Source: a virus
IMG/VR virus record: IMGVR_UViG_3300042528_000525
Coordinates: 1 to 38,008 of that record
Length of the DNA stretch: 38,008 nucleotides
Reading direction: 5' to 3' (one strand)
A program made the position numbers and the translations under genes. This document shows, in pieces, positions 5,700-13,609 of this stretch; positions within the stretch are counted from its first letter, which is position 1, and each line of letters opens with the position of its first letter. Below the pieces are notes generated by a model. It searched no databases, was not told the DNA's origin, and was given only the letters and a program-made list of their open reading frames with translations.

Positions 5700-6682
5700 A
5701 AAAACCCAACGCACTCCAAAACATCGTCTCCAAAAGCCAAGTCGCCGCCGCGCTCAACGAAGCCGCCGCCGCCCGCGCCCAGCTCGAAGCCGAACGCCGC
5801 GCCCACGCTGAGACCGTCAAAGCCCTCGAGCGCGTCCGCTTCACCCGCCCGCCCAAAAAAATCACCCCACGCACCAGCACCGCAGGCACCGGCGACATCG
5901 TCGAAGTCATTTTCTCAGATGTCCACGGCAACAAGCACGACCCCGCTGCCATGGCCGCCTTTCTCGGCGATCTCAAATCCCTCAACCCCGACCGCCTCAT
6001 CGTCGGCGGCGATTTCGTGGATTGCGGCGGCTTCCTCGCCGAGCACCACACGCTCGGATATGTGGCCGAGACGGACGACTCCTACGAAGACGACATCGCC
6101 GTCGCCAACAGCCTCCTCGACCAAATCCTCGCCGCCGCCCGCCCCAGCGAAGTCCACTACATCGAGGGCAACCACGAGTGGCGCGTCGAACGCTGGGCGC
6201 TCACCCAACGCCTCGCCCATCACAAAGACACCGACCTCCTCCGCCGCACCTTCTGCCCCGAGCATGTCCTGCGACTCAAAGACCGCGGCATCGCTTACTA
6301 CCACCAAGGAAAAACCCACGGCGACTGCGACACGCCAGGATGGGTCAAAATCGACAAAGCCTTCTTCGTCCACAAAATCTCCAACGCCCGCGATGCCGCC
6401 GGTCAAGCCATGGCAAAAGCCGCCGCCAACATCGTTTTCTTCGACACCCACCGCGCCGCCTACAAGCCCATGCACCTCCCCGGCGTCGGCCTCATCAGCG
6501 CCTGGAACCCCGGCTGCCTCTGCAAACGCCAACCCCTCTACGCCAACACCCGCCCCACCGAGTGGACCCACGGCTACCTCGTCCGCTTCATTTCTAAACG
6601 CACCGGCAATTTCCAGATGGTCAATGTCACCATCAACGACGGCGTCAGCTACGCCAGCCTCCTCCTCAAACCCAAGTCATGA
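5696..6682 (+). CDS. Calcineurin-like metallophosphoesterase
   Basis: 328 residues, start fixed by the ATGA overlap at 5696. Residues 1-50 are a short coiled coil (AAAARAQLEAERRAHAETVK). The metallophosphoesterase motifs follow in order: FSDVHGNKHD at about residue 73 (D-x-H), VGGDFVD at about 103 (GD), IEGNHEWR at about 156 (GNHE), a later His in VHKIS, and FFDTHR at about 249 in place of the usual GHTH. The substrate is unknown; phage members act on nucleotides or nucleic acid ends. The substituted last motif could affect metal binding. It is placed between the lysis genes and an HTH gene. Confidence 0.88.
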   Translation: MKKPNALQNIVSKSQVAAALNEAAAARAQLEAERRAHAETVKALERVRFTRPPKKITPRTSTAGTGDIVEVIFSDVHGNKHDPAAMAAFLGDLKSLNPDRLIVGGDFVDCGGFLAEHHTLGYVAETDDSYEDDIAVANSLLDQILAAARPSEVHYIEGNHEWRVERWALTQRLAHHKDTDLLRRTFCPEHVLRLKDRGIAYYHQGKTHGDCDTPGWVKIDKAFFVHKISNARDAAGQAMAKAAANIVFFDTHRAAYKPMHLPGVGLISAWNPGCLCKRQPLYANTRPTEWTHGYLVRFISKRTGNFQMVNVTINDGVSYASLLLKPKS

Positions 6683-7122
6683 ACAAACTCCTCGCCCTCG
6701 TCGCCAAGCACAAAGCCGCCAAATACGGCATCCCGCCCAACCAAGGCTGGCTCACCCGCCAGCAAGCCGCCCGCCAGCTCGGCACCACCGACCGCAATGT
6801 CCACGACCTCCTCCGCGACGCCATTGAGGCCAAAGACATCGAGTGCAAAAAATTCTCCGATTGGGACGCCGCCAGCATGCGCCCCGTGCAAGTCACCTGC
6901 TACCGCATCCTCGCCGACATCCCCGACAAAAAATCCCCCGCCAAAAAATCCACGCCTGCCGCAGCCGTCGGCCCCATCAGCTCCGAACTCCGCACCGCCG
7001 TCCTCGCCGCCCACAAACGCCACCCCCACATCCCAGGCCGCCGCCTCCGCGAATACCTCCCCCCCCGCCTCCGCCGCGCCTCCACCGGCGACCAAGTCCT
7101 CGAAATCCTCGCCAAGGCGTAA
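6679..7122 (+). CDS. Putative HTH DNA-binding protein
   Basis: 147 residues, coupled by ATGA to the phosphoesterase. Residues about 27-60 (GWLTRQQAARQLGTTDRNVH, then DLLRDAI) look like a helix-turn-helix of the excisionase/MerR type. A lysine/proline linker (residues 88-100) leads to a second small helical region rich in arginine (KRHPHIPGRRLREYLPP, then STGDQVLEIL). No family was recognised. Regulation of the lysis or integration region is possible from its position three genes before attP. Confidence 0.55.
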   Translation: MNKLLALVAKHKAAKYGIPPNQGWLTRQQAARQLGTTDRNVHDLLRDAIEAKDIECKKFSDWDAASMRPVQVTCYRILADIPDKKSPAKKSTPAAAVGPISSELRTAVLAAHKRHPHIPGRRLREYLPPRLRRASTGDQVLEILAKA

Positions 7123-12439: not shown

Positions 12440-12934
12440 ATGGAACGGGTTTATTTTTTCCACAATGGCAACGAGTGCAAGATCGGATGCACAGAGAACG
12501 ACTTACGGCTTCGGCTGTGGGCGGCTCATGTTTGGTCCCCTCGTGCGCTTGAAATGCTTGGGTGGGTGCAAGCCCAACCCGGCGAAAAAACCATTTTGGA
12601 AAAACAAATCCACCTCGCTCTTGCCCACCGTCGGCTTGTTAAGCCCAGTGGCAATGGCGAGTGGTTCAAACTCTCACGCAGTGAGGCATTAGAAACAATA
12701 AAAAAATATGAAGGACATCAAAACAACTACACTTACGGCCACGCTTCGCGGCATCCGGCCCATTATGTTCGACCGCTACGCGGGAGACAACAAAACGAAA
12801 CTGCCGGTGATGGAAAAATTCTACACCGCACCATCGGGCCATTTGGTCATTCCCGTGCTCAACCTTTATTCACTACTGGCGGCACAAAACACGCCATCGG
12901 TGGCCAAGCGTTTTTACGGAAAGCAGGCGCGTGA
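12440..12934 (+). CDS. GIY-YIG (T5orf172-like) protein, run-on C-terminus
   Basis: Residues 1-90 form a small GIY-YIG-like domain: MERVYFFHNGNECKIGCTEN, DLRLRLWAAHVWSP, LEKQIHLALAHRRL and NGEWFKLS, as in T5orf172 nucleases. After that the frame overlaps the well-supported gene at 12708 for 227 bases and loses any protein-like pattern. A run of seven A (12700-12706) precedes ATATGA. One extra A would put this frame on the TGA of ATGA at 12708, the coupling seen at most junctions here. The natural protein therefore probably ends at about residue 90, and the extension reflects an indel or slippage. Confidence 0.6.
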   Translation: MERVYFFHNGNECKIGCTENDLRLRLWAAHVWSPRALEMLGWVQAQPGEKTILEKQIHLALAHRRLVKPSGNGEWFKLSRSEALETIKKYEGHQNNYTYGHASRHPAHYVRPLRGRQQNETAGDGKILHRTIGPFGHSRAQPLFTTGGTKHAIGGQAFLRKAGA

Positions 12935-13268
12935 TGTTGCCCTTGGAGTTATGTCTTTTGTCTCTATTGAGGCAACTGGAGACGATCCGCTGAACGCCCA
13001 AATTCTTGACGCAGACGGAAAGGCTTACACGCTCAAAGACCCAAGGATCGAGGTTTTGCAGCATGTCGCAAGGGTTAAGGATGGTGTGCCTAACCCTAAA
13101 GAACGCCCGATGCTTCCGACGGGTTGGCAAATCAAAATCCAACTTACGCACCAAGAAAATACCTTACTCACAGCCGCATGCCTTCAAACTATGCTGGATC
13201 AAGGTGGAATTTTGGGGCTTGGAACATTTCGCCCAATCTTTGGCCGCTACACGGTTGAATGGAAATGA
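12708..13268 (+). CDS. Recombination-cluster protein of unknown function
   Basis: 186 residues, not assigned to a family. The sequence runs DIKTTTLTATLRGIRPIMFD, FYTAPSGHLVIPVLNLYSLL, SFVSIEATGDDP, a charged middle, and a C-terminal GILGLGTFRPIFGRYTVEWK. The glycine-rich GLGTFRPIFGRY end is similar in style to that of proteins in other phage recombination modules and of RAMP-like folds, but no catalytic residues are evident. It follows ATPase, nuclease and SSB genes, and its stop borders the GGCNN arrays. It has a lower GC content than its neighbours. Confidence 0.65.
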   Translation: MKDIKTTTLTATLRGIRPIMFDRYAGDNKTKLPVMEKFYTAPSGHLVIPVLNLYSLLAAQNTPSVAKRFYGKQARDVALGVMSFVSIEATGDDPLNAQILDADGKAYTLKDPRIEVLQHVARVKDGVPNPKERPMLPTGWQIKIQLTHQENTLLTAACLQTMLDQGGILGLGTFRPIFGRYTVEWK

Positions 13269-13280
13269 TTTGTGATTCGC

Positions 13281-13405
13281 GGCAGGGCGCGGCCGGGACT
13301 GGCACGGCTCGGCATGGCAAGGCTGGGCTCGGCCTGGCGTGGCAGGGCTGTGCAGGGCTAGGCGCGGCGCGGCGGGGCTCGGCGAGGCCCGGCGTGGCTT
13401 GGCAA
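13281..13405 (+). repeat. GGCNN pentamer array 1
   Basis: Twenty-five consecutive 5-bp units, 23 of them GGC followed by two variable bases; the exceptions are GGACT and TGCAG. The two variable bases take most possible values, so the array is not a simple microsatellite. The array runs from 12 bases after the stop at 13268 into hairpin element 1. The 5-bp phase is kept across the hairpin into array 2. Confidence 0.9.
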
Positions 13406-13439
13406 ACACACTGCACCTTTATTGGGTGCAGCAGTTTGC
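13402..13439 (+). other. Hairpin element 1 at end of GGCNN array
   Basis: Outer stem GCAAAC (13402-13407) pairs with GTTTGC (13434-13439). An internal loop ACA / CA separates it from an inner 7-bp stem, CTGCACC (13411-13417) with GGTGCAG (13425-13431), closed by a 7-base loop. Element 2 has the same outer stem and internal loop. Confidence 0.8.
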
Positions 13440-13440
13440 T

Positions 13441-13535
13441 TGGCTTGGCAAGCGCGGCAAGGCGAGGCAGGGCCCGGCTCGGCGCGGCGGGGCGAGGCAG
13501 GGCGCGGCGAGGCAGGGCGCGGCGAGGCATTGCAA
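13441..13535 (+). repeat. GGCNN pentamer array 2
   Basis: Nineteen 5-bp units in phase with array 1, 15 of them GGCNN. The right half nearly repeats a 10-15 bp super-unit (GGCGA GGCAG GGCGC), so this copy may have expanded more recently. It ends in hairpin element 2. Confidence 0.88.
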
Positions 13536-13568
13536 ACACACGGCGCTTTACGGAGCGCCGCAGTTTGC
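13532..13568 (+). other. Hairpin element 2 at end of GGCNN array
   Basis: GCAAAC (13532-13537) pairs with GTTTGC (13563-13568). Internal loop ACA / CA, inner stem CGGCGCT (13541-13547) with AGCGCCG (13554-13560), 6-base loop. Relative to element 1, three of seven inner pairs differ and each change is compensated. Confidence 0.8.
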
Positions 13569-13594
13569 GAACCCACACCAATAACAAATCGAAA

Positions 13595-13609
13595 ATGAAA
13601 CAACTATGA
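13595..13609 (+). other. Micro-ORF MKQL bridging to next gene
   Basis: ATG AAA CAA CTA TGA. Its stop overlaps the start codon of the gene at 13606 as ATGA. It may let ribosomes reinitiate after the GGCNN region. The frame is also open further upstream through the arrays. Confidence 0.4.

Follow-up and report, generated by a model that had tools for sequence, protein, structure and literature searches.

VIPR, a recently described relative of CRISPR, reads DNA through variable letter pairs of a guide (PMC13142463, a 2026 preprint). According to the main text of that preprint, VIPR systems combine a RAMP protein, Vipr, with vrRNAs that carry 9–16 GGY/NN repeats and a structured 3′ tail; GGY is the protein-bound scaffold, along which, in the proposed model, successive Vipr subunits each make a single GGY contact with the RNA, and NN is the programmable guide. 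The systems, of which seven types are distinguished, are mostly encoded by phages or proviruses, and an accessory vap gene acts on DNA. Expression of vrRNAs, formation of the RNP, the one-nucleotide skip rule, DNA binding, and silencing come from work on SUSP1 and P. fulva, and the NN pairs of SUSP1 are reported to set the target. Predicted nucleases are given there for types III and V only, which are said to be enriched in defence islands, and GIY-YIG is not mentioned in the main text.

Here, we describe a locus in a viral contig of 38,008 nucleotides (IMG/VR record IMGVR_UViG_3300042528_000525, positions 1 to 38,008; hereafter, the window) that, judging from sequence and by analogy with the described systems, is very probably a phage-encoded VIPR locus, with two hairpin-capped vrRNAs that would be coated by Vipr, read double-stranded DNA through their NN pairs, and silence competitors. 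The relevant features are as follows.

12440..12934, plus strand: gene of the GIY-YIG (T5orf172/MUG113) type, a candidate for a vap-like accessory role, from Pfam matches, synteny, and motif residues
12708..13268, plus strand: vipr, predicted 186-aa RAMP protein with the C-terminal glycine loop GGILGLGTFRPIFGRY, from PHROG, PDB profile, AF2, and fold matches
13281..13400, plus strand: predicted vrRNA 1 repeat tract, 24 GGCNN units with NN as the putative guide
13402..13439, plus strand: predicted 3′ tail hairpin of vrRNA 1, from fold and covariation
13442..13451, plus strand: two GGCNN units (13442 and 13447), one base off the register of the remainder of array 2 and probably not part of the functional guide
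13456..13530, plus strand: predicted repeat tract of vrRNA 2, with 15 GGCNN units that share the phase of the tail
13532..13568, plus strand: predicted 3′ tail hairpin of vrRNA 2, from fold and covariation

The 186-aa protein matches PHROG 4652 (1e-7), a family of unknown function that is matched by 85 of 86 Vipr homologues and, on these profile matches, corresponds to the Vipr family. A profile of the 86 homologues (A2) matched the SUSP1 Vipr structure (PDB 36pp) across the whole domain with E = 5.6e-38, and a narrower profile (A1), built from the clade of the window, matched the same entry at 0.0018. The AlphaFold (AF2) model built on the A2 alignment reached a pLDDT of 94.8, compared with only 42 for the narrow alignment. 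The nearest structures to this model in Foldseek were Csm3 and type VII Cas7 subunits (1.4e-6), VIA returned Csm3 as the best fold match (a Z of 12.6 and an rmsd of 3.9 across 161 residues), and the glycine-loop motif is present in 126 of 133 relatives. Profile and model together indicate that the protein is a Vipr with the CRISPR Csm3/Cas7 (RAMP) fold; a tblastn search with it yielded no match among INPHARED phages. The RAMP fold, the glycine loop, and a guide RNA with a constant handle are shared with class 1 CRISPR effectors and their Csm3/Cas7 backbone, but the locus has no identical repeats and spacers, and its guide information would reside in dinucleotides between constant triplets. A class 1 CRISPR-Cas system was rejected because a tandem-repeat search at the arrays recovered only periods that are multiples of 5 and no cas family was found in the eight neighbouring proteins scanned.

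Both GGCNN arrays are located between the stop of the 186-aa gene (12708–13268) and the next gene (~13606). The initial annotation had counted 25 and 19 in-phase units, with GGC nearly invariant. The first array indeed comprises 25 (13281–13405; exact GGC in 23, plus one GGA and one TGC), the last of which, GGCAA, is already the start of the hairpin, leaving 24 units ahead of the tail, 22 of them with exact GGC. The second array is real, but the count is about 18: units at 13442 and 13447 are followed by a 9-nt step and by 16 in-phase units from 13456, the last of them TGCAA, so that 15 units precede the tail. The phase that had been said to persist across the first hairpin is kept from 13456 on (13401 to 13456 is 55 nt), but not by the units at 13442 and 13447. 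Exact GGCNN units follow one another in phase up to 15 times; among 2000 first-order shuffles of this region no such run exceeded 5 units, and the rest of the window has none longer than 2. Elsewhere, L091 carries a single array of ~119 GGCNN units in 700 bp (6310–7010), in which staggered, overlapping vrRNAs are possible.

Each tail in the window consists of the outer stem GCAAAC/GTTTGC, the internal loop ACA/CA, and an inner stem, as originally described, except that the inner stem has 8 bp rather than 7; the three compensatory inner-pair changes claimed between the two hairpins are present. In an alignment of 36 related tails, 99.2% of the pair cells are paired, and both sides have changed in 83 pair cells, compared with 19 in shuffles and at most 15 when the alignment is slid. 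Compensatory change affects 9 of the 14 tail pairs overall, with covariation in 7 of the 8 inner pairs, and the outer stem also varies with pairing kept (GCAAAC/GTTTGC, GCTAAC/GTTAGC, GTCCAC/GTGGGC, and GCAGAC/GTCTGC). An Rfam search of the region produced nothing at the gathering score, and BLASTN against phages gave weak chance matches only.

The GCAAACACA...CAGTTTGC tail also occurs beside Viprs that are only ~25–29% identical to that of the window (L024, L045, L047, L051, L053, L061, L067, and others), which suggests, from sequence comparison, either tail exchange or strong conservation. Within the window's own Vipr clade, L246–L252 have a different tail with a longer GGGCGGCAC stem downstream of vipr, and L245 has another element, GGCAACTACGAG. 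Some GGCNN arrays contain, or are immediately followed on the 3′ side by, tRNA-like elements (ARAGORN identified one in L176 and an odd one in L190), and a T-arm-like sequence similar to these is found in L088 and L103.

Scanning IMG/VR for the hairpin pattern yielded 83 stretches, in which a Vipr gene accompanies the tail in 28 of 29 contigs with true tails, while the 54 look-alikes without pairing have none. Hairpins with a paired inner stem close a GGCNN array, sometimes a degenerate one; the matches with a non-pairing inner stem have no array alongside. The pattern also matched 28 GTDB contigs, which were dismissed as chance, with neither arrays nor Vipr (0/28). An independent IMG/VR scan, which looked for eight GGCNN units without regard to the hairpin, identified at least 119 contigs; in the 119 listed, Vipr lies on the same strand as the array in 82, on the opposite strand in 2, and nowhere in the examined DNA in 35. 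Among the matches listed, arrays are confined to one strand per contig, except in L101, a simple GGCCC microsatellite, and many stop just ahead of a gene start. When a profile was iterated over the collected loci, 139 of them proved to encode Vipr homologues. The window and its relatives are IMG/VR viral contigs; a Vipr search of the two genomes behind L213 and L215 found nothing. More distant Vipr homologues are present in 5 of 388 sampled Verrucomicrobiota genomes (L261–L265), and three of these also have GGC arrays, in part degenerate, in the vicinity.

These surveys bear on the simplest explanation of the arrays, plain expansion of a pentamer microsatellite next to an unrelated hairpin. 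Uniform units, of the kind expected from such expansion, do occur in a few contigs (L101, L110, L156, L164, and L183), but hairpin-less arrays of uniform units are not the general pattern: units are heterogeneous with GGC kept, and hairpin and array co-occur across many phages and with Vipr, leaving this explanation a practically negligible chance. The initial reading of a structured non-coding locus is instead upheld by the tail covariation, the array architecture, and the linkage to Vipr. The arrays are best read as two vrRNAs because the adjoining 186-aa protein is, by these comparisons, a Vipr.

The guide letters themselves differ between close relatives. Three loci (L248, L249, and L250) have 100% identical vipr genes, 100% identical tails and 350 nt downstream, and upstream DNA that is 99–100% identical, but their arrays are merely 74–85% alike and differ in the number of units, which looks like guide turnover or replacement. 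The first array of the window and that of L232 have a run of units in common that is displaced between the two and contains an identical TGC deviation; certain guides therefore appear to diverge by point changes and unit indels, not by whole replacement. Across 4741 units from 425 arrays, NN composition is nearest to codon positions 1–2 (KL 0.087, versus 0.165 and 0.356 for the other registers), and TA is the most depleted dinucleotide. Departures of NN from base composition track genomic DNA equally in all three registers (r ~0.85), so the NN pairs resemble pieces of natural DNA; because these deviations fit the three registers equally, the codon register, and hence the one-base skip, draws its support from base composition and not from any dependence within the dinucleotide, and the compositional signal points weakly to the one-nucleotide skip rule holding here.

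That GGC is selected and the last two bases are free, as first proposed, proved right. TRAP sites likewise join a constant triplet to two free bases (NAGNN), and the arrays could in principle be a protein-binding RNA without a guide role, a TRAP-like decoy or leader in which NN is a mere spacer. Such spacers would be random, unlike the observed NN pairs with their genomic deviations; the adjoining protein is not TRAP but a RAMP with homology to Vipr; and the NN pairs of SUSP1 are reported to set the target (PMC13142463). The decoy was dropped upon the RAMP homology of the adjoining protein, and we regard this family of explanations as very unlikely. In the VIPR reading, GGC would be the protein-bound scaffold and NN the guide.

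The genes surrounding the locus are those of recombination and replication (Sak4, exonuclease, DUF669, and helicase), a location that would suit a DNA-level platform, that is, iterons, a replication origin, or an enhancer with half-helical spacing in a replication operon. Among 24 relatives from the window's clade, however, Sak4, exonuclease, and DUF669 lie before vipr, after it, or nowhere near it, whereas a GIY-YIG gene is the direct upstream neighbour of vipr in all 24. The pairs in the tail covary, the NN pairs turn over among otherwise near-identical phages, and the arrays are co-oriented with Vipr in 82 of the 84 listed contigs that have both, all of which argues against a platform that acts as DNA. 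Of the three functions originally entertained, binding platform, origin/enhancer, or ncRNA, the last is thus retained and the DNA-level options have only a slender chance. The pentamer spacing, which had been attributed to selection at half-helical intervals, finds a better explanation in the model of the preprint (PMC13142463), in which every Vipr subunit along the RNA contacts one GGY.

The GIY-YIG gene matches the Pfam families MUG113 (1.7e-8) and T5orf172 (3.4e-7), and its motif residues are conserved in the alignment. Of the 139 loci, 40 have a GIY-YIG gene upstream of vipr by profile search, nearly all from the window's clade; 18 loci with the same tail and a more distant Vipr (~25–29% identical where measured) have no GIY-YIG. 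The constancy of this partner suggests nicking or cutting of the bound DNA as a possible further activity in the window's clade. The GIY-YIG domain ends at ~12706, and its frame stays open into vipr. This frame is open for 66–86 codons inside vipr in all 16 sequences inspected (12708–12934 in the window, plus 15 relatives), and synonymous shuffles of vipr keep it open in 1–14% of cases per sequence, the 16 sequences being related to one another; a run of A lies at the GIY-YIG/vipr junction of the window. The open frame may represent an overlapping coding region. As for the host, terminase comparison places Akkermansia phage Moulinsart nearest among named phages (37%), which weakly suggests a verrucomicrobial host.

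No target was found for either guide of the window in IMG/VR, 388 Verrucomicrobiota genomes, phage relatives, or the collected loci. In IMG/VR, guide cores read under the skip rule had 0, 4, 10, 7, and 18 exact matches, whose flanking letters agreed no better than expected by chance, and no guide match stood out in the phage relatives and collected loci. Two matches with 3 mismatches in the 388 Verrucomicrobiota genomes were set aside, the first because it does not extend and the second, in a flagellar FlhB-like gene (24/30), as chance. An all-against-all comparison of the collected loci under skip rules, which has little power, revealed no excess, and there was no sign of self-targeting within the window (guide 1 matched 16/26 at best, guide 2 19/30).

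We assign the locus to VIPR because it has the features by which these systems are defined at the sequence level: a GGY/NN tract (24 + 15 units), a structured 3′ tail, an adjacent RAMP Vipr, and residence in viral contigs. The closest described relatives are the type II systems of Escherichia phage SUSP1 and a Pseudomonas fulva prophage, which, as presented in the main text of the preprint (PMC13142463), likewise have a GGY/NN tract with a structured 3′ tail and several vrRNAs next to a ~20 kDa phage-encoded Vipr, homologous to that of the window over the whole domain. Unlike these, the window has as its tail a hairpin of two stems around an ACA/CA loop, in which no pseudoknot is visible, a GIY-YIG gene as candidate accessory gene where theirs encodes a predicted DNA-binding protein, and, in array 1, 24 units, beyond the reported range of 9–16. 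A predicted nuclease is also the accessory gene of types III and V of the same source, as it would be here, but those are reported to be enriched in host defence islands, whereas the window's locus sits among the replication genes of a phage.

By analogy with SUSP1, the arrays and hairpins would be transcribed as two guide RNAs, on which copies of Vipr would line up, one per GGC, exposing the NN dinucleotides; these would read a double-stranded DNA target by a gapped code (successive NN pairs with one skipped base between them), with the hairpin capping each guide as its 3′ tail, and the complex would bind genes carried by rival phages, prophages, or satellites and silence them. We infer the targets, the probably verrucomicrobial host, and the role of GIY-YIG. 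A more elaborate scheme, which we put forward tentatively and consider rather doubtful, is a phage VIPR subtype in which the Vipr–vrRNA complex would mark competitor DNA and GIY-YIG would cut it, with a further reading frame within vipr supplying the C-terminus of the nuclease, and with exchange of the hairpin tail between distant Vipr lineages.

Apparently undescribed so far are GIY-YIG as the constant upstream neighbour in a VIPR clade (with respect to the main text of PMC13142463), a single tail common to Viprs with only ~25% identity, and the identification of PHROG 4652 as Vipr. An RNA-guided system with a gapped code would now be placed in uncultured phages with probable verrucomicrobial hosts, and an easy DNA signature (GGCNN arrays), together with a protein family handle (PHROG 4652), should allow VIPR systems to be found in bulk. 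The clade with a nuclease-like partner offers a setting in which targeted DNA cutting by phage-encoded VIPR may occur, and phages that are near-identical save for their guides provide natural material on guide acquisition.
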